Positions 1 to 14,645 of a stretch of 64,000 nt of DNA are shown piece after piece. Where the stretch lies: assembly GCA_020852835.1 (NCBI GenBank), contig JADZAC010000045.1, forward strand, positions 1 to 64,000, given 5' to 3'. Under the pieces are notes generated by a model. The model was not told where the DNA came from. It saw only the letters and a list, made by a program, of their open reading frames with translations, and did not search any database. Made by a program: the position numbers and the translations under genes. Within the stretch, counting starts at the first letter, position 1; the number at the start of each line of letters is the position of its first letter. Source of the DNA: Flavobacteriales bacterium (GTDB lineage Bacteria; Bacteroidota; Bacteroidia; Flavobacteriales_F; PHOS-HE28).

Positions 1-3000
1 CCGCTGTTGCGATCGCCGCTGATGGTGGCGCCGCTGCAGTTGTCGCTGACGGTGGGCGCGGCCCAGGTGGCCACGGCATCACACCCCGCACCGGCGCTCA
101 GGCTGATGTCGCTGGGGCATCCGCTGATCACGGGGATGAGGTCGTCAAGTACGGTGACCGTAGCTGTACAATCGTCGGTCAATCCGCCGTTGTCGGTCGC
201 TGTAAGCGTTACGGTCACTTGGCCCAGGTTACTGCAATCAACAGAATTGGGGGAAACGGACAGGGTGATGGTGCCGTCGGGGTCATTACTGCCGTTGTCC
301 ACTAAGGCCGGGGTGATCGTGGCGTTGCCGGTACCGTCCAAATAGATGGTGGCGGCTTGGCACACGGCCACGGGAGGTAGGTTCTTGGCAATGGCGGCCG
401 AGAACTCCGAGGTGTTGTTTGTGGAAAGGCTCGTGGCAGTGGCGGTCACAACGTGCCCATCGGTCAAGCTCACTCCGGTGAGCACCGCCGTGAAACTCGC
501 GTCGCCGGCTGCATCGGTGTTTATGCCGAAAGATCCGAGGTAGTTCGCACCCTCCCCGTATCCACTGGGGTCGGCCGTGGGGGAGGAGAAGAATTCAATG
601 CGGAAATCGCCTAAGGCGGTGCTGTTCAAGGTGCCGACAATGGTGGTGTTGCCGCCCGCCGTGGTGGCGGTGGTCAGCACGGGGAAGTTCTGCAGGGCAT
701 TGGGCCCGCTGTCGGGATCACCGGCATCATTTGCCGTCACACCGTCCGCGTTCAGGTCGATGCCCAGGTCGCCGTTGTCGAAGATCCGGTTCCCCAGCAG
801 GCCGTTGCCCGAACTGTTGGCGGAGCTCACGCGTAAGCCCCTGAATTGGTTGTTGGCGATGGTATTGCCATCGCGGGCCCCCGTGCCTCCGATCAGATTG
901 TTCACGGGGCCGCCGAGGATGCGCACGCCGTCGAGCCCGTTGCCTGCAGCACTGGCCCCGTCGATGAGCACTCCGATGTAGTTGCCCTGGATCCGGTTGT
1001 TCGTGCAAGGTGTATTGGCGAGCTGGATCCCGTTGCCGGCATTTCCGGAAACAACGTTCCCCTGGAACGCGCCGCCACCGCCGATCTGGTTGTTGGAGCA
1101 GCCATTAATAATAATGCCATTGCCATTGGCTATGCTGCCCGTACCTGCTGCATTGATGCCGATGTAATTGCCCTGTATGGAAGAGTTTCCCGAGCCTGAG
1201 CTGCAGTTGATGCCGACCTCTGCGTTTCCGCTGATGATGTTCCGCCCTGCTGCGGAGCCGTTGCCTATCACGGTCCCTGTGGAGTTGTTCGAGCAGCGGA
1301 TGCCGCCGGTGCCATTGCCTATGGCAGCCGTGCCTGCTGCGTTGGTGCCGATCCTGTTGCCCAGGATAAGGGTGCCGGTGGCAGCAAGGTTCATGAGCAC
1401 TCCGTTGCCGCCGTTTCCGCTGATCACATTGCCGGCGGTTTGCGCCGTTCCGCCGATGGTGTTGTTCATCGATCCGGAGCGCACGTAAATGCCGTGATCG
1501 GCATTGCCCAAGGCCGCATTTCCGGCGACGTTGGTGCCGATGTAGTTGCCGATGATGGTGTTGTTCCGGGCATCGTCCTGCAGGTTGATGCCGGATTCCC
1601 CGTTCGCGCTGATCACGTTGCGCTCCGTCGGAGTGGTGCCGCCCACGGTGTTGTCGTGGGCCGCATTGCCGAGCCAGATGCCGTGTTGGGCATTGCCGAG
1701 CGCCCCGTTCCCCGAGGCATCCGTTCCGATCAGGTTGCCCTTTACGATCGTTGTGGTGACATCACTTCCGTCCAGCACCACTCCGTGCCCGTTGTTGCCG
1801 GAGATCTGGTTGTCGGCCACCTCGGTGCCGGAGGCAATACCCTCCACATAGACCCCGTGTACGTTGGGCAATGCCGTATTGCCGCCCAAGGCCGTACCGA
1901 TGGTGTTGTGCCGGATGATGTTGCCCGTGCAGGCGGAGCCTTGGCCATAGACCCAGACTCCTGCACCCAAATTGCCTGCGATCAAATTGCCCGCAGCAGC
2001 CGTGGTGCCGCCGACCATGTTGCCCGATCCGTCGCGGATCAGGATCCCGTGGCTTCCGTTGCCCATTCCGGCAAGTCCGGTGGGGTCCGTGCCGATCCGG
2101 TTCGCTGTGATGGCGTTGCCGGTGCTGGTGGGTTCCATAAGGTACACACCATTGAAGGTGTTGGCGCTGATCACATTGCCCGGGCCGATGGTGTTGTCCT
2201 GGGCGTTCTCAATAATCAAGCCCTGTTGGTTGCCCAGGGCATTGCCGGCGGTGTTCAGCCCGATGTAGTTGCCCTGAACGCTGTTGTTGTTGGCTGCGCC
2301 GCCAATGTGGATGCCCCAGCCGGTATTGCCCGCCACGATGTTCCGTTCCCCTGCGGTGCTTCCACCAACGGTGTTGTGGTGCGCTCCGGATGCCAGGGTG
2401 ATGCCTTCACTGCCGTTTGCCAACGCCGCAGTGCCGTTTGCCTGTACACCGATGAAATTGGCCTGGATGCTATTTGCACTGCTTCCGGAACCCCTTATGA
2501 AGATCGCGTCACCGCTGTTCCCGGACACCAAGTTGCCCTTGCCGGGTTCTCCGATGATGTTTCCGCTTGAACCATCTTCCGCAAAGATCCCGGTGCTTGC
2601 ATTCGGGATCGCCCCGGTTCCGGCGAGGTCGGTGCCAACATGGTTGCCGATGATCAGGTTGTTCTGGGAGTTGTTAAGCCATATACCGCTGTTGCCATGC
2701 CCGCTCATTACGTTGCGCATGGTTGCCGTGGCGGTGCCAATGGTATTGTCATGTGCGCCGTTCTCCATTACCACGCCGTAAGGCTGGCTGCACAGTGCGG
2801 CGGTACCTGCGGGGTTGGTGCCGAAGAGGGTGCGCACCACGATGGCGTGATGTGTTCCGGTGCCATGGAGCACCAATCCTCCGTTCGCGTTCCCGACGAT
2901 CACATTGTACGGGTCATTTGCTTCGTTCACTCCACCGATATCCGCATTGGCGGCATCGTCCACATAGATCCCGGCACCGCCGTTGCCGCCGCATGCACCA

Positions 3001-4748
3001 CCTGGGGTTATCCCGATGTAGCATCCGGTCAGGGTCATCTCTTGTTCGTTGACCAGCACGCCGTTCCCCTGGAAGTTGGTGATGCTCACTCCGTACAAGG
3101 CACACCACCCGGTGCTGAACTCAAGGCCGTTGGCACCGGCACCAGCGCTGGTGCCGTCCACATGGATCACGGGTGTACCGCTGAAGTCCGGCTCCGAGAA
3201 GCCGTCAATGCAGGTGGACGTGTAGAGGGGCGGGTAGGCGCTGCCTGGCATGATCACGTGCGGCCCGGGGCCGGGAATGTCGAAGTAGATGTAGTTGGGC
3301 GTCCAGGCATCGCGGTTGTTGTTGGCCGCCAGGATGGCCTCGCGAAGGCTGATGCCATCGCCCCCTTGGTTGCCCACCAGGGCGATCACCGAGCTCACAT
3401 CACCGTTGACCAGATCAGTGGGGTTGGTTACCGTAAGGCTGCCCGCGAAGCAGTTGTAGTTCTGGGAGAATTCGGAGGTGCTGAAGTCGCCCAGGTGGCT
3501 GGCCGTCATGCTGATGGCCGTGCCTGCGGGGATATCGTACCAGTTCCCGGGCGTTGCCGAGAAGGTCCCGGTGCCCGCACCGTCGGTCACGGCGGAGCTT
3601 AAGCCCAGCCAGGTCCGGCCTTCCCCATGGCCGCTGGGATCAGGGCTTGCATCCGCATAGAAGTCGAACCGGTACCAGGTATTGGGTGCTCCGTTGTATG
3701 TGAAATTCACGTAGACACGGCCGTCCCCGTCGGTCATGGCCGCAGTGATCACGGGGGCGTTCAGGTATTGGTTGGGGCCTGCCGGGCCGGAACCGTTCGG
3801 GGTAATGCCGTCTGCACCCAGGTCGATGCCCAAGCCACCGTTGTCGAACACGTTGTTGCCATTGACCATGAGCCGTGTGGCTCCATCGGTCACGGCTACA
3901 CCTTCTGCACTGCAACCGGCAATGCGGTTTGCGGTATAGGGGTCATCACCCAAGGTGTTCTGTATGGAGCCCGCTTCTGCCCGCACGCCTTGCTGCAGGC
4001 CGCCGATCACCGTGGTGCCGTCATGGGCCAGCCCGAAGAAGTTGTTGTAGATCAGGGTTCCTGAGCAGGTTGCCCCGGTGAGCAGCAGGCCCGGCGATGC
4101 TGTTGCCCCGCTGAACAGGTTGCGGTCGCCTGGGTCAGTGCTGCCCACTTCGCTGCCGTCCCCGGCGATCAACACCCCGTTGCCGGTGCCGCTGGCTGCG
4201 GTGCCAGCCGCGTCGATGCCGATGAAGTTGCCATAGATGCCAGTGCCCGAGGCCGTGGCTTGTACTTCAATGGAGTTGGTGGTGAAGCGGTTGATCACCA
4301 AACCCTGTACCGAGCAGTTGCTGGCAGCGATCGTGAAACTGGTGGCCACGGTGTTGTTGCCGTTCACTTCCAGGAGAAGCACGGCATTGCTGGAGGGGTT
4401 CCAAACATCAGTGTCGGTATTTTTTAAGCTGCCGGGCTGGCTGTAGCCGTCAATGAAGAGTTGTTCCGTGATGGTCGGCAGGCTGCTGGCCAAGGTGATG
4501 GTACGCACCCCTGCACCGGGAATGTTGAACTGGATGGTGTCCGCGCCCGGCGCCGCGTTGGCGTCCACTATGGCCTGGCGCAAGGAACCAGGGCCGTTGT
4601 TTCCGGTGCTCGTTACGATGAAAATTGCCGCATCGGCCTCCGGGGCGAAGGCTCCGGACAGCATGATAACAACTGCTCCGAATGCAAGCAGCTTGTTTCT
4701 TGTTGCACCTGGGTTGCTCACGGGGCTTGGGGTCATATCGGTCGGCAT
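1..4748 (-). CDS. Giant secreted right-handed beta-helix protein with HYR-like domain (partial, 3' end off window)
   Basis: The frame stays open from an ATG at 4748 to the left edge, giving 1582 visible codons; a second in-frame ATG lies at 4736. After a hydrophobic signal or anchor segment (residues about 20-40) comes a helix-entry motif SLRQAI (about 55-60). A second module starts with SLREAI (about 467-472). Between and after these run dozens of Asn/Gly-rich turns of the type NxIxGNxIGT, the signature of parallel beta-helix surface proteins. A segment ending [10 protein letters not shown] closes the helix region. The visible C-terminal part (about 1400-1582) is Cys-containing and Asp-rich, of the HYR/PKD kind (CPSDIS, VSDNCSG). 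The missing end would probably carry a T9SS sorting domain; that is inference. Function is unknown; such proteins are usually large extracellular adhesins or polysaccharide-active proteins. Confidence 0.85.
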
Positions 4749-5005: not shown

Positions 5006-5392
5006 TCAGACCACCGGGGCGCCGGTCCGTACATGGATCGGCATGTTGGTCAGCTCGATGAATGATTCAGCGGCTTCCTCCATGAATTCGTCTCCCGATT
5101 CCGTGTACCATGCTATGTGGAACTGCTTTCCGGCTGCCTCGCCACGCCTGATCTCCATCAACAACAAGTAGATGGCCTTCAGCGAGCTGGAATTGAAATA
5201 GGGCAGGTTGAACTCGAACGTGCACAGCTTCGGGAGCGCTTCCAGATTGCGGTCAAGCCACTCCATGATGGGCCTGAAGAAGTTGTTCGCGTTCTCCGGT
5301 ATGGAATTGCCGGTCACCAGGAACCGCGATTGCTCCGAGGAGAAACTAACGGCCGGTGTATTGGCTGTGGCGGGGATGTTCAGTGTTTCCAT
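5006..5392 (-). CDS. siaC: SiaC-family regulatory phosphoprotein (DUF1987)
   Basis: A 128-aa cytosolic protein matching the SiaC/DUF1987 family in length and motifs (FLVTGNSIPENA, WLDRNL, FEFNLPYFNSSSLKAI). In Pseudomonas, SiaC is phosphorylated by SiaB, dephosphorylated by SiaA, and in its unphosphorylated form activates the diguanylate cyclase SiaD. The known phosphorylated threonine falls in the Tyr-Phe-Asn-Thr-Ser region; here the corresponding stretch is N67-S68-S69-S70, so a serine would be the acceptor. It is the last gene of the operon, with a 3-base gap after siaB. No SiaD-like cyclase lies in the window, so the target of SiaC here is unknown. Confidence 0.88.
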   Translation of the reverse strand: METLNIPATANTPAVSFSSEQSRFLVTGNSIPENANNFFRPIMEWLDRNLEALPKLCTFEFNLPYFNSSSLKAIYLLLMEIRRGEAAGKQFHIAWYTESGDEFMEEAAESFIELTNMPIHVRTGAPVV

Positions 5393-5395
5393 GGC

Positions 5396-5917
5396 TTAGG
5401 CTCTATGGCGTGTTAAAGGTGCGGATACTTCGGAGCGGCAGAGGTAGACCCCGTTAGTTTCGGGTTCTGCGTATGCGCGAATGCTGTTGCCCACCTTCCG
5501 GGCGATCTGCAGCATGCCAAGCCCCGCGCCTCCTTTTTCACCGTAGCCTTCTTCGGTCAGTTGCCTTCGGAAGGCTTTCGTGATCTCTTCGGGGCTCATG
5601 CGGGCGATTTCTCCAACGGATTTGAGCAGGCGTTCTGCATCCGTGCCTATGGCACGGTTCGTTACGCGCACCACCAATTCGCCTCCGGCAATGTGCCAGG
5701 CAAAGTCCACGTCGCTGCCCACGTTGTAGCGCTGGGCATTGTCCAGCAGTTCCAAAGCCACGCCAACGAGTTTCTTGAGGTCGTTGCGCGGGCCCAGGTT
5801 GCACAGGGCGATGCACTGCAACAGGCTGATCAGCTGTATGCGCACCTCGCTGCTCAGCTGGCCTTGGTAGTCCAAGAGGCTCTTGTCCATCTCCGGGTTG
5901 TCCTTAGGGGTGTTCAT
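5396..5917 (-). CDS. siaB: SiaB-family protein kinase
   Basis: A 173-aa single-domain HATPase-type kinase. It keeps an N-box (ELLDNAQRY, residues 56-64) and a glycine-rich ATP lid (GEKGGAGLGML, about 126-136). Both are typical of the SiaB/DUF6272 family, which phosphorylates SiaC, and of anti-sigma-factor-type partner-switch kinases. The start codon overlaps the stop of the upstream phosphatase gene by four bases (ATGA), which implies translational coupling and equal dosage of phosphatase and kinase. The protein has no membrane segment or signal peptide. Confidence 0.88.
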   Translation of the reverse strand: MNTPKDNPEMDKSLLDYQGQLSSEVRIQLISLLQCIALCNLGPRNDLKKLVGVALELLDNAQRYNVGSDVDFAWHIAGGELVVRVTNRAIGTDAERLLKSVGEIARMSPEEITKAFRRQLTEEGYGEKGGAGLGMLQIARKVGNSIRAYAEPETNGVYLCRSEVSAPLTRHRA

Positions 5918-8457
5918 GCCGCGTACCGCATGCCGATGAGCAGTACGTCGTCTGTTTGCGGTTGTCCGTTTTTCCAGTCTTCAAATTCCCGCTCGGCCAT
6001 GGCCTTCACTTCGGCAAGGCCACGGGAGCCGCCTTGTTCCAGAAGTTGGGTGAGGCGCTTCATGGAGAATTTCTTGCCCCCGTCAGGGCCTCCGAACTGG
6101 TGGATGATCCCGTCGCTGAACAGGAACAAGGAGTCTCCGGTTTCGAGCTGGATGTGGTGGGCCTTGTAGCCCTCCTTGCGTTCAAACCGGTCGTCGCCCA
6201 AGGGCAGCAGGTCCCCCTTGAAGCGCTCGACCTCGCCATTGCGCAGCAGCAACAATGGAAGCTGTGCCCCGGCGTAGCACAGTTGGCCGTTGTCCAGGTC
6301 AATGGCGCACAGGCCGATGTCGAAGCCGTCGTTGAAGAGCCCGCTTTCGCTGCGTGCGTTCATGGTTTTGCGGACGTGTTCGTGCAACAAGTCCAGCAAC
6401 TCCGCACTGCCGACCTCAGGGTGTTCCGCAAGCAGGTCGTTCAAGCCGTAGTAGGCAATGAAGGTCATCATGGCGGCTGGCACCCCGTGCCCGGTACAAT
6501 CGATCGCCGCCACGAACAGCCGGTTGCCGATGCGCTTCACGAAAGGCAGGTCGCCGCTCACGTTATGCAGGGGCCGGTACATCAGAAAACTCTCGGGCAC
6601 CAGGTCACGCAGTGCTTGTTCGCCCGGGATGATGGTGGACTGGATGGTGCGCGCGTATTCCAAGCTGCTTTCAATGTCCTTGTTCCGCGCGTCCAGCTCG
6701 GTGTTGATCGCCGTGATCTGCTCGTTCTGCAGGCTCACCATGCGCTTCTTCCGCCGCGCCACAAGCCACGCCCAGTACATCCAGCCGGCAAAGCCGAAAC
6801 CGGCCGCGGCCACTGCGATCATCATGTTCCGCGTGGCCTGCTGCCGGGCTTGTTTGGCCTTGATGGCCTGGCTCTCCATTTCGGTGGCCTTGTTCTGCTG
6901 CTCCAGCAGTTCCATGGTGCGTTGTTGGTCGCGCTGTTCGGCCTTCATCCGGGACAGGTTCAGCGTCTGCATCATGCGGCTATTGTCCAGGTCCTTGATC
7001 TTGCGCTCCTGCCGCTCGCGTTCCAGGGAAGCCTGCACGAGGAGCAGTTCGCGCTTGGTGCGTTCGCTCACCATGGCGGCTTCGCGGGTGGCCGCTTCCT
7101 GAAGCTGTTTTTCGTAGATCAGCAAAGACATCTGCTTTTCCCTGTTCTCCGCGTCCAGCGCGAGTTGTTTCAAGCGGGTTTCCTTGCGTTGTGTACGGTC
7201 GAGCAGGTCGGTTTGTTCCCGCTCGATGCGCTGCAGGCGCAGGAGCTGGCCATCGTGCTCGGAGCGTAGCTCGTTCTGCTTCCGCGCCATGCGCTCCTCG
7301 ATCTCCCCGGCACGGCGCTCGTACTGCCTCGATTCCTGGTCCAGGTGCATGTGCTCAAATACCGCCGCCAGTATGCCGCACGCCTCCGCCTGGTCTTTGT
7401 CGCTGTGTTGCTCCTCAGCACTGGCAAGGGCCTCAAAGGCTGCGGCCTGGGCCTTGGCCAGGTCGTTGAAGCTGAAGTTCATGGCGGCTTCGGTGAGCAG
7501 CACACGGGGCAATATGGCGGGCAGTTGCGATCTGGCAACTTGGCGCTTGGCATCGGCCAAGGAAAGGAAGGCCGCATCGCGGTGCCCGGAGGCTGCCATG
7601 GCATGCACCACGTTGATCGTCATGTTCAGGCGCACCTCCGGCAGGTCTTCCACCAGGATCAGGCCTTGGTTGTAGGCTTCAATGGATTTTTCGCGATCCC
7701 CCAGCCGGTTGTACAGTTCGGCCTTGTTGTTGGCGCTCACGGCCGCATCCTCGGCGCGGTCCTCGGCAATAGCCATGCGCATCAGACGCTCCTCGGTTTC
7801 CAGTGCTTCCGCGTTTTGGCCGAGGGTTGCTTGTGAGGAGGCCAAGTGCGCGAGCAGGCTGTACTGCAAGTCCTTGTCGTCCTGGGCGGCTTTGCCGGAT
7901 AGTATGCGCAGGCAATAGTCTTCCAGTTCCTTAGGGGCCATGATGCCGGCGTTGGCGGCAAGTTCCACGCTGAGCATGCTCGATGGGGGGATCTGGTCTG
8001 CCGCCGTGCTTGTGCGGGCCTCCTGGAGGTGTTCCAAGGCTTTTTGCGGGTGGCCCGCAGCGATGTACAGACTGGCCAAGTAGAGCAGGGCGTTGGTGCG
8101 CAGGCTGCTGTGTACCGTACCGTTCACCAAGGTGGCCCGCACCGCCGCACCGATGGCATTTTCCATGTCACCCTTGGCTTTGTGGGCCCGTGCGAGCTCC
8201 AGCAACCCCCGGGTCTGGTCGAGGTCCTGACCGTTCTTTTCGGCTTCCGCGCTTCCCTGTGTTGCGTATTCCACGGCATTGCGCAGGTGCCCGGCCAGCC
8301 GTTCCTTGGTGGAGAGGTCAATGAGCTTGGCAGCGCGTTCCTTGCCTGCTGCAGGCACTGCTGCAGACGAGAGCAAGGGCTGCTCCTGCGCCAGGCAAGG
8401 CACCATTGCGAAGAGCATGGTGCAGAGGATCAATGCTACGGCCTTACCCCCCCTCAT
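5914..8457 (-). CDS. SiaA-like phosphatase: periplasmic TPR, transmembrane helix, SpoIIE/PP2C domain
   Basis: The chosen ATG (8457) gives 847 aa, a clean signal peptide (MRGGKAVALILC...) and a 4-base ATGA overlap with the receptor stop codon; a longer start at 8490 would overlap it by 37 bases. In order: signal sequence (1-23), TPR-like helical repeats (about 30-390), a Gln/Glu/Arg-rich coiled coil (about 390-540), one transmembrane helix (about 545-566), a linker (SLEYARTIQ), then a SpoIIE/PPM phosphatase domain. Metal-binding aspartates are present in SGD (634-636), DCTGHG (653), FSDG (about 781) and TDDV (about 835). By analogy with SiaA it should dephosphorylate SiaC in the cytoplasm, with the TPR part sensing something in the periplasm. 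The ligand is unknown, and the topology is inferred from the signal peptide and single helix. Confidence 0.85.
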   Translation of the reverse strand: MRGGKAVALILCTMLFAMVPCLAQEQPLLSSAAVPAAGKERAAKLIDLSTKERLAGHLRNAVEYATQGSAEAEKNGQDLDQTRGLLELARAHKAKGDMENAIGAAVRATLVNGTVHSSLRTNALLYLASLYIAAGHPQKALEHLQEARTSTAADQIPPSSMLSVELAANAGIMAPKELEDYCLRILSGKAAQDDKDLQYSLLAHLASSQATLGQNAEALETEERLMRMAIAEDRAEDAAVSANNKAELYNRLGDREKSIEAYNQGLILVEDLPEVRLNMTINVVHAMAASGHRDAAFLSLADAKRQVARSQLPAILPRVLLTEAAMNFSFNDLAKAQAAAFEALASAEEQHSDKDQAEACGILAAVFEHMHLDQESRQYERRAGEIEERMARKQNELRSEHDGQLLRLQRIEREQTDLLDRTQRKETRLKQLALDAENREKQMSLLIYEKQLQEAATREAAMVSERTKRELLLVQASLERERQERKIKDLDNSRMMQTLNLSRMKAEQRDQQRTMELLEQQNKATEMESQAIKAKQARQQATRNMMIAVAAAGFGFAGWMYWAWLVARRKKRMVSLQNEQITAINTELDARNKDIESSLEYARTIQSTIIPGEQALRDLVPESFLMYRPLHNVSGDLPFVKRIGNRLFVAAIDCTGHGVPAAMMTFIAYYGLNDLLAEHPEVGSAELLDLLHEHVRKTMNARSESGLFNDGFDIGLCAIDLDNGQLCYAGAQLPLLLLRNGEVERFKGDLLPLGDDRFERKEGYKAHHIQLETGDSLFLFSDGIIHQFGGPDGGKKFSMKRLTQLLEQGGSRGLAEVKAMAEREFEDWKNGQPQTDDVLLIGMRYAA

Positions 8458-10493
8458 CGCACGAAATTGTAGGTGACGCCTATTTGCCACTGCCTACCGT
8501 TGAGCTGCAATGGGGTTTGATCGATGTGGGCAGGGCTCACGATCAGTTGCGGGGTGTCCAGGATGTTGCCGCACGACAAGTCAACGGACAAGCGCCGCTC
8601 CTTGTCCGGATGAATGCCGATCCCGGCGTAAAGCAGCGCTTGCTCGGCCGTGGTTTCTTGGACAACATGGCCTTCGCTTGTGTAACGCAGGATCTGTATG
8701 CCGCTCTGCCAGCTGCCCCTGCAGCGCAGCGTGAGCCAAGGTGCGGCTTCATATCCGATGGCGCCGATCAGCCGCACCGGGGGAAGACCCTGAAGGCTGG
8801 CGGCATCGCCTGGTGCATCCGTGGCCGAACCGGTTATGCCGTCCATCCTTCTCACCAACCCTGCTGCCACCAACAGGCTCATCCGCTTGGTTTCTATTTG
8901 CAGGCGGGCATCGATGCCTTCCGTTCCCGTGGGCGTGCCGTTCCGGTACACCATCCGGCCGGTGCTATCGATCGTTGCCATGATCGGGTCCGTGATCGTG
9001 GTCTGGTAGATGTTGCCTGTGATGCGCACCGCTTTGCCGATGCGAAGGCCCAGTTCGCCTTCCAAACTGGTCACTTGCGCCCCCAGCAGGCTGCCGGGCA
9101 CTGAAGCATGGTCCAAGGTGAAGAGGGACGGGATCCGGTACGACCGGCCCCAGCCGATCTTTCCGTGGAATCTCCTGGCCACGCGCGTGAATGCAAACCG
9201 GGGCGCGCCGAAGGTGCCCGCCAAGGAATGCTGTTCCTGCCTGAAGCCGGCCAGGAGCACGCCTGCTTTGCTGCGCCAGCTGGCTTCCGCCAGCCACGCC
9301 ATGGAAGGAAAGGGGATGGCGTGGCTGCCATCGAAATGCCGGGCCAGGGTATCGTGCCGTTGCTCAAATATGCTGGTCCGCAGGGATCCGTCCACGCCCG
9401 CGCGCAGGGCCAAGCCTTCAACCGGCTTGTAGATCAAGATCGCCTTGGCGGAGGTGGTGGTGCTGGAAGTGTTGGCGGAAAGGAGTGCCGGAGATCCCGT
9501 GTTGATGTAATTCCAAGGTGCCTGATCCGAATGGCCGGCCCGCCAGTACAGTTCCAAACGTTTGACCAGGGCAGCCCGCTGCTCCAGGCCGAACACCATG
9601 TTGCGCTGAAGAACGGCATGGTCTCCCATGCCGGGATGGAACCGCTCTTCCACGTATGCGGCGCTGGCCTTCAGGCTCTTCCAACGGTATGCAAGTTGGA
9701 AACTGTTGGAGGCGAAGCCGGTGCTGTCGGCCGCGTTCATGCGTGTGCTGTCCGGCAGCAGGTAGTCCGCATTGCTCCTGGTGCCCGTGGATCGGCTGAT
9801 CAGGAAGCTGAGGTCCTGCTGGCCGCTGAGCCGATGGGCACCGCTGGCAGTGGTGGTGGTATACGCGTGCTGGCCGTTGGCGAAACCGGTCTGCATGTCG
9901 ACCGCGCTGCCTGTGCCGTGCTCGGCGGTGCGGGTCACGATGTTCACCACGCCCAACGCCGCCATGCCGCCGTGCATCACAAAGGATGGCCCGGTCAGTA
10001 TCTCAATGCGTTCCACGTTGGCCATGGGAACGCGGTTGCCCAATGCGAAAGACCCGTTGTCGGCTTCGTTCAGCACCTTGCCGTCCAGCATGAACAGGCA
10101 TTGGCCTTCCATGGCCCAGTTGCCGTGGATGCCCGCACCGATGGATGCATCGCGGCCCAAGGCCATGGAAATTCCAGGGACCAGCATCAGCGCTTCTTGA
10201 AGGTTGCGCACGCCGTACGCTTTCAGTTGCCGGGATGTGATCACCTGTACTTGGGCCGGTGCTTCCCGTTCATCGCGGGCCTCCATGTCCGCCAGCCGTG
10301 TGGTGGCGTAGTACGTTCGGGCATCGCTGGAAGTGCCCAGCAGCGAACGCGGGTCGGCTTCCAGCAGGCGTTGTTCTTCCTGGCTGGGCGTGTACTGGCC
10401 TTGCGCCGCAACGTGGTAGGCCCACGAAAGCGCGCTGAACAGCGCCAGCCACTTGATGGAAGCTGGATGAATGATCGAAGGAGAACCCTTCAT
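8454..10493 (-). CDS. TonB-dependent outer-membrane receptor
   Basis: A 679-aa protein with a signal peptide (about 1-30), a plug domain (about 78-190; APAQVQVITSRQLKAYGV, VERIEILTGPSFVMHGG, GVVNIVTR) and a beta-barrel of alternating polar and aromatic strands ending in TYNFVR. Its length is in the usual TonB-receptor range. There is no N-terminal FecA-type signalling domain and no CarboxypepD-like extension. It is first in the operon: its TGA stop overlaps the start of the phosphatase gene by four bases. The substrate cannot be read from the sequence (siderophore, cobalamin or another ligand). No SusD-like partner is adjacent, which argues against a polysaccharide-utilisation pair. Confidence 0.88.
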   Translation of the reverse strand: MKGSPSIIHPASIKWLALFSALSWAYHVAAQGQYTPSQEEQRLLEADPRSLLGTSSDARTYYATTRLADMEARDEREAPAQVQVITSRQLKAYGVRNLQEALMLVPGISMALGRDASIGAGIHGNWAMEGQCLFMLDGKVLNEADNGSFALGNRVPMANVERIEILTGPSFVMHGGMAALGVVNIVTRTAEHGTGSAVDMQTGFANGQHAYTTTTASGAHRLSGQQDLSFLISRSTGTRSNADYLLPDSTRMNAADSTGFASNSFQLAYRWKSLKASAAYVEERFHPGMGDHAVLQRNMVFGLEQRAALVKRLELYWRAGHSDQAPWNYINTGSPALLSANTSSTTTSAKAILIYKPVEGLALRAGVDGSLRTSIFEQRHDTLARHFDGSHAIPFPSMAWLAEASWRSKAGVLLAGFRQEQHSLAGTFGAPRFAFTRVARRFHGKIGWGRSYRIPSLFTLDHASVPGSLLGAQVTSLEGELGLRIGKAVRITGNIYQTTITDPIMATIDSTGRMVYRNGTPTGTEGIDARLQIETKRMSLLVAAGLVRRMDGITGSATDAPGDAASLQGLPPVRLIGAIGYEAAPWLTLRCRGSWQSGIQILRYTSEGHVVQETTAEQALLYAGIGIHPDKERRLSVDLSCGNILDTPQLIVSPAHIDQTPLQLNGRQWQIGVTYNFVR

Positions 10494-14093: not shown

Positions 14094-14582
14094 CTACTTG
14101 ATCTCGCCGGCCGCCTTCCGTCGCGCCTTCTCCACGTCCCAAGAGCCATCGCGCTTGGCCGCGAAGAAGTCACTGATCAGCTTGCGCTGCGCATCGGTCA
14201 GCCGGGCATCGGCATGGGTCCAGGTATAGCTGTCCAGCGGCATCTCCTTCTTTTCCATCATCTCCATCACCTCCTTGGCCTGGTGGTCGCGCTGGTAGGC
14301 GGGCACCGTGCCCCACGTGGTGGCATCGAAGTGTTTGCGTCCTTCCTTGATGTGCTGGTTGAGCCACCAGTTCACCGGGGTGATGTTGGCGTACCAAGGA
14401 TAGCGCGGTTGGCCGCTGTGGCAATCGTAGCAGGCCACGCGCAGCAGGCCCTCGATCTCCGCAGCGGGCTTGGTCAGTGCGATCAGGTCCGATGCGGGGT
14501 CCACGGGTTCGGCTACCTTCGAAGGGCGGATGAATTGCGCCAGCAGGATGATCGCGGCAAGGATGTACAGGAACCTTTTCAT
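14094..14582 (-). CDS. Haem-binding domain protein with CxxCH motif
   Basis: 162 aa from the ATG at 14582, which yields an N-terminal membrane or signal helix (MKRFLYILAAIILLAQF). The single cytochrome-c-type motif CYDCH (C51, C54, H55) is followed by YPWYANITPVNWWL, the pattern of the small Haem_bd domain family of Bacteroidota. A Lys/Glu-rich C-terminal part (DFFAAKRDGSW) completes it. It is likely anchored in the periplasm, carrying one covalent haem c; its electron partner is unknown. The gap to the upstream peptidase gene is 63 bases, so they may be co-transcribed. Confidence 0.8.
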   Translation of the reverse strand: MKRFLYILAAIILLAQFIRPSKVAEPVDPASDLIALTKPAAEIEGLLRVACYDCHSGQPRYPWYANITPVNWWLNQHIKEGRKHFDATTWGTVPAYQRDHQAKEVMEMMEKKEMPLDSYTWTHADARLTDAQRKLISDFFAAKRDGSWDVEKARRKAAGEIK

Positions 14583-14645
14583 GGGCTTGGCATATTGAAC
14601 ACCGTCCAATGTAACGGGACCGCATTTCCCTGCAGTTGATATATC

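Follow-up and report, generated by a model that had tools for sequence, protein, structure and literature searches.

We found that a gene for a TonB-dependent receptor leads directly into the genes of a SiaABC-type partner switch, and that this gene order is conserved far beyond what chance would give, in 12/12 receptor-bearing genomes of the genus and in another family. The window, i.e., the whole stretch of DNA analysed (64,000 nt of contig JADZAC010000045.1, assembly GCA_020852835.1, positions 1 to 64,000 of the forward strand), carries all four genes on its minus strand at 5006-10493, where both the sequence and Pfam matches place them. Because the pairing of receptor and SiaABC recurs in relatives that lack c-di-GMP, the receptor probably signals across two membranes. 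The reading that we favour, if only by a modest degree, is that the operon performs trans-envelope signalling, in which the receptor would act on the periplasmic TPR domain of SiaA and thereby on the phosphorylation of SiaC. No published description of a receptor-SiaABC operon was found in the open-licence literature searched.

The row consists of the receptor (8454..10493, minus strand, 679 aa; identified by Pfam, AlphaFold2 and orthologues), a SiaA-type TPR-SpoIIE phosphatase (5914..8457, minus strand, 847 aa; Pfam, NCBIfam and AlphaFold2), a SiaB-type kinase of the DUF6272/HATPase kind (5396..5890, minus strand; Pfam, with an ATG start supported by orthologues) and SiaC (5006..5392, minus strand, 128 aa; Pfam and alignment to PDB 6k4f/6kko). 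The original prediction of such a row was borne out, as were two of the junctions that it described: the ATGA overlap at 8454..8457 (minus strand), in which the receptor stop TGA lies within the phosphatase start ATG, is read from the sequence and kept in 9/11 genus operons, and only 3 bases separate the kinase gene from SiaC. The phosphatase start was taken as ATG 8457, and not as GTG 8490 of the mechanical ORF list, because the former yields a proper signal peptide and agrees with the relatives. Another ATGA overlap had been proposed between phosphatase and kinase; the letters exist at 5917-5914, but their use as an overlap is doubtful. Four relatives (L101, L102, L103 and L105), the nearest of which has a 96% identical kinase, show no phosphatase-kinase overlap of that kind, and in most of them the kinase begins at the counterpart of window ATG 5890 (MDKSLLDYQG), which leaves a 23-base gap after the phosphatase stop. 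ATG 5917, the source of the overlap, is not conserved. Since the relatives use the counterpart of 5890, the overlap is probably unused and probably the product of a mis-called start. Scans for sigma-70 promoters and for terminators gave nothing helpful above shuffles, and the TAnnTTTG motif was not found upstream of the receptor; the linkage of the four genes suggests that they are transcribed as one unit. A gene for a probable surface or secreted beta-helix protein (3..4664, minus strand, cut at the window edge; Pfam NosD/Beta_helix) follows 341 bases downstream of SiaC on the same strand; it is conserved in the closer relatives, and may or may not be a member of the operon.

In the predicted layout of the phosphatase, a signal peptide (~1-24) and a periplasmic TPR solenoid of some 330 residues (~38-370) come first; an extended coiled coil with a single membrane span (~547-570) follows, and the SpoIIE/PP2C domain (~620-847) lies in the cytosol. 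The AlphaFold2 model has a pLDDT of 79.6. The SpoIIE domain is matched by Pfam at 2.3e-23 and the TPR matches are weak; the NCBIfam SiaA match (1.8e-42) is limited to the phosphatase part. The candidate metal-site aspartates D636, D653, D782 and D836/D837 are invariant in 9 SiaA orthologues, and it is the combination of a SpoIIE/PP2C domain bearing these aspartates with a membrane anchor, the span being predicted, that makes the protein SiaA-type. The kinase matches DUF6272 (PF19788) at 3.2e-13, and its ExxxN motif (E56 and N60 of the long form) and the glycine-rich box GGAGLG are invariant among orthologues. SiaC matches PF09345 at 1.2e-30 and aligns to the solved Pseudomonas SiaC (PDB 6k4f/6kko), with N67-S68-S69 here at the place of the Pseudomonas N67-T68-S69 phosphosite (Thr68 of 6k4f). 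Ser68 is kept in every SiaC of the genus operon copies; Thr is kept in two SiaC paralogues of the same genome, as well as in the second-family SiaC with a readable motif. An acceptor of the PF09345 family with a hydroxyl residue at position 68, next to a SiaB-type HATPase with ExxxN and a glycine-rich box, is what defines a SiaABC-type module. The original prediction of a complete SiaA-SiaB-SiaC thus stands in this sense, but not in the sense of an orthologue of the Pseudomonas system, given that all three proteins score below the NCBIfam equivalog cut-offs (SiaA 145.7 of 700 bits, SiaB 36.8 of 225, SiaC 73.3 of 150).

In Pseudomonas, SiaC Thr68 is phosphorylated by SiaB and dephosphorylated by SiaA, and SiaC residues Asn67, Thr68 and Ser69 bind SiaD (PMC7647112, PMC8457831). 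By analogy with this literature, SiaB would be the kinase, SiaA the phosphatase and Ser68 the phosphosite in the window. The likeness to the SiaABCD system of Pseudomonas aeruginosa extends to an inner-membrane PP2C phosphatase, a HATPase kinase, a SiaC with N67-x68-S69 and the location in one operon, whereas an outer-membrane receptor leads the operon only here, the sensor part is TPR with one span instead of HAMP with two spans, Ser68 stands for Thr68, and the genus has neither SiaD nor any GGDEF protein (PMC7647112, PMC8457831).

Receptor orthologues occur in 12/45 genomes of the genus, and the phosphatase adjoins the receptor in each of these 12. There are ten complete four-gene rows, including that of the window; the row of G017 has an in-frame stop in the phosphatase. 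A contig break splits the row of G006, and a contig end cuts that of G015, in which the partial next gene matches the SiaA profile. The linkage is unbroken although the receptors diverge down to 26-37% identity across the genus. The operon adjoins rimO in the receptor-bearing genomes and is therefore inherited vertically, with loss or non-gain elsewhere; it is missing from 33/45 genomes of the genus and is thus dispensable, which counts against the trans-envelope reading. It should be noted that the genus copies are not independent events, that the loci were chosen from best matches and not at random, that the gene calls beyond the window come from a simple script, and that the genome-wide counts rest on family searches. 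Several relatives also keep the gene for a haem-binding domain protein (PF14376; window 14094-14609, minus strand) next to rimO and the operon.

The flanks of the genus operons bear on the direction of the putative signal. In 7 operons (the window, L101-L105 and L109), the gene after SiaC encodes a large protein of secreted type, and in three divergent copies (L108, L109 and L110) genes for a LuxR-type regulator and a propeller histidine kinase stand ahead of the receptor. These features would suit a reverse flow, in which SiaABC controls the receptor or the downstream surface protein within an output operon that has its own regulator. We regard this as improbable, because the surface gene is 250-530 bases off and is missing after SiaC in L108, L110 and L111, and because the signal peptide of SiaA is followed by a large domain resembling a sensor, as expected of an input. 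These two regulatory genes, of which the LuxR-type one encodes a response regulator, sit immediately before the receptor, at L108:13170-16894, L109:11344-15056 and L110:8146-11864, and a second SpoIIE gene follows SiaC in L108 and L110.

Outside the genus, the class sample (395 genomes) contained two most similar receptors (L143 and L149), each leading straight into a TPR-SpoIIE gene, two SiaB genes and SiaC. The family search and the remaining class matches yielded six further loci, where the receptor gene has SiaC on one side and a TPR-SpoIIE gene on the other; in several of them the TPR-SpoIIE protein is fused to a SiaB kinase. The second family therefore has, in total, 8 receptor-SiaABC loci in two layouts. 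L208 was dropped as a separate lineage and counted once with L311, to which its receptor is identical. In some second-family loci the row continues with genes for a FIST protein, a histidine kinase and a receiver; for example, L312:166-13969, as well as L310, L313, L314 and L296, reads PAS/GAF-SpoIIE, SiaC, receptor, TPR-SpoIIE(-SiaB), SiaB, SiaC, FIST, histidine kinase and receiver. In a third family, one receptor falls within the SiaABC-linked clade, and its next gene is cut by the contig end. This partial gene matches a profile of several SiaA N-termini (7e-9 as a single-sequence search) and does not match one SiaA in a direct BLAST comparison, so that the locus is a candidate for the same pairing.

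The survey of TonB receptors upstream of SpoIIE-SiaB-SiaC, which the original prediction had proposed as its check, thus shows an order conserved within the genus and recurring in a second family, so that the prediction withstands its own refuting condition of an order lost even among close relatives. It could be argued that the genes are chance neighbours, inasmuch as all genus copies go back to a single ancestral locus by rimO and represent one formation event. However, the arrangement is kept over deep divergence, it reappears in the second family at different loci and with a different layout, a single receptor clade is involved, and none of 30 general SiaC loci has a TonB-dependent receptor within 1.5 kb. 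We therefore assign chance adjacency a negligible probability and consider it ruled out by the survey of the genus, the second family and the general SiaC loci.

The predicted parts of the receptor are a signal peptide, a disordered segment of ~36 residues, a plug and a beta-barrel (Pfam Plug 1.5e-15, barrel 6.7e-8). Its AlphaFold2 model (pLDDT 77.8) shows a barrel closed by a plug, with the N-terminus disordered, and the closest PDB folds are BtuB, Cir and PfeA, and searches of Pfam and NCBIfam detected no STN signalling domain. In the receptor tree, the SiaABC-linked receptors form one clade (98/96; SH-aLRT 91 in a tree with more rows), sister to a clade of YfiR-linked receptors (98/95). YfiR acts in the periplasm, where it regulates a cyclase of the inner membrane. 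A YfiR/HmsC-like gene (DUF4154) is the same-strand neighbour of the receptor in 42/45 other loci of the receptor family in the class (18/19, without the clade member L196, plus 24/26), often with the same 4-base overlap at the junction, and SpoIIE or hybrid histidine-kinase genes lie near these YfiR-linked receptors. Conversely, YfiR is beside the receptor in 0/20 SiaABC-linked loci. Since the sister clade pairs with YfiR and the SiaABC-linked loci do without it, the TPR domain of SiaA appears to take the place of YfiR. The plain reading is that the receptor family serves signalling, with a periplasmic module encoded in second place, mostly YfiR and here the TPR domain of SiaA. Among open-licence papers, we found no description of YfiR or DUF4154 with TonB receptors, nor of SpoIIE or partner switches with them.

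YfiR is present in 43/45 genomes of the genus and lies near HAMP-SpoIIE in most of the cases listed; the sole YfiR of the genome studied here sits in a separate operon (YfiR, TPR-S and HAMP-SpoIIE, L010:8453-11739). More distant receptors from Proteobacteria head a YfiR gene together with a GGDEF-motif gene or a kinase-sized gene, as judged by motif and size only. In one cluster with a more distant TonB-dependent receptor, YfiR, PAS and SpoIIE phosphatase are parts of one protein (L280:5061-7421), and L029 (G095:C6) has a row of SpoIIE, SiaB, SiaC and YfiR, with the receptor not in view.

The genes could also be kept together if a transporter is co-expressed with a signalling module unrelated to it. 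Specifically, the receptor may be an ordinary nutrient importer, while the TPR domain of SiaA senses something else, such as the imported ligand or the state of the envelope, without receptor contact. The fold shared with the importers BtuB, Cir and PfeA is consistent with this explanation, as is the lack of an STN domain, which equally counts against the trans-envelope reading, and uptake and regulation are often joined in operons. Nevertheless, the receptor clade immediately adjoins the TPR-bearing SiaA across families, its sister clade is tied to YfiR and not to transport genes, and in the genus and wider loci surveyed, genes for transport, substrate binding or metabolism do not recur next to the receptor. 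We thus consider a plain importer to be unlikely.

In the trans-envelope reading, the receptor would bind its ligand at the cell surface, and its periplasmic face (the plug and the short disordered N-terminal segment) would be read by the TPR domain of SiaA. SiaA, crossing the inner membrane once, would convert this reading into the activity of its cytosolic SpoIIE/PP2C domain; SiaB would add and SiaA remove the phosphate on SiaC, most likely at Ser68, and unphosphorylated SiaC would bind and switch a target other than a diguanylate cyclase. The following evidence supports this reading: (i) SiaA and SiaB retain their catalytic motifs, and SiaC retains a hydroxyl residue as acceptor; (ii) the linkage outlasts receptor divergence and recurs in the two second-family layouts; (iii) the sister clade of receptors pairs with YfiR, and SiaA has the predicted layout of TPR domain, single span and phosphatase. 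The same evidence lends weight to the chain from receptor through the SiaA sensor to SiaC that the original prediction had outlined, whereas the receptor-TPR contact, the direction of the signal, the ligand and the SiaC target are what we infer from linkage. A more specific claim, that the operon represents a distinct signalling class, in which an STN-less TonB receptor reports directly to the TPR domain of a PP2C phosphatase that replaces YfiR and drives a c-di-GMP-independent SiaABC, is plausible, albeit rather less than probable.

To our knowledge, sigma/anti-sigma systems are the main case in which ligand signalling from an outer-membrane receptor to the cytoplasm has been worked out in detail. 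FecA and FpvA exemplify transducing TonB receptors that work with sigma/anti-sigma pairs. As in that type, the TonB-dependent receptor would report its ligand through the periplasm to an inner-membrane protein; in contrast, the inner-membrane partner here is a phosphatase, the STN domain is absent, and the gene content of the genus loci includes no ECF sigma/anti-sigma pair (small genes were assessed from their N-termini and not all of them with Pfam). In YfiBNR and HmsC-type systems, control is exerted by a periplasmic YfiR protein. The receptor-YfiR loci resemble the operon in having a sister-clade receptor and a periplasmic module between the receptor gene and an inner-membrane enzyme, and differ from it in that the TPR domain of SiaA stands in place of YfiR and the output is a SiaABC switch instead of GGDEF, a histidine kinase or a lone SpoIIE. 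The partner switches SpoIIAA/SpoIIAB/SpoIIE and RsbVWU also consist of a phosphatase, a kinase and a STAS-like acceptor with Ser, whereas SiaC here belongs to the DUF1987 family and the operon has no sigma factor. Together with the YfiR-linked sister family, the operon points to TonB-dependent receptors as inputs of phosphatase, histidine-kinase and cyclase pathways.

On the output side, the absence of a cyclase, originally noted for the window, extends to the whole genome and the genus: no GGDEF protein was detected in the genome studied here (99% complete) or in the 45 genus genomes, and control genomes matched as expected. The same searches leave no match for a SiaD diguanylate cyclase. The output is therefore not c-di-GMP, and the target of SiaC must be something else. 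A candidate non-cyclase effector is a TerB-ABC2 transporter: the other SiaB-SiaC pair of the genome is tail to tail with such a gene (1024 aa), the neighbourhood recurs in 12 of 30 class-wide SiaC loci, and two of the class loci encode a fusion of SiaC with a TerB-ABC-like segment. The window SiaC might share this target with the paralogous pair, which would make the operon an extra input to a widespread Bacteroidia system. The recurrent neighbourhood, the two fusions and the lack of any GGDEF protein speak for this sharing; however, the two SiaC are only 30% identical, and the change to Ser68 may mark separate partners, so that we put it forward tentatively, as somewhat doubtful. It concerns the output side only and is compatible with the trans-envelope reading. 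The operon is a clean setting for the role of SiaC in bacteria that make no c-di-GMP, and since SiaC is present in 81/98 related genomes searched, that role, once answered, would apply widely in Bacteroidia. TerB-ABC2 genes (~1020 aa) lie beside SiaB-SiaC at L005:8979-12053 (the same genome), L147, L148, L151, L152, L159, L144 and L156, and many Bacteroidia carry clusters of the form CheR-CheB-(GAF)-SiaA-SiaB-SiaC-TerB/ABC.
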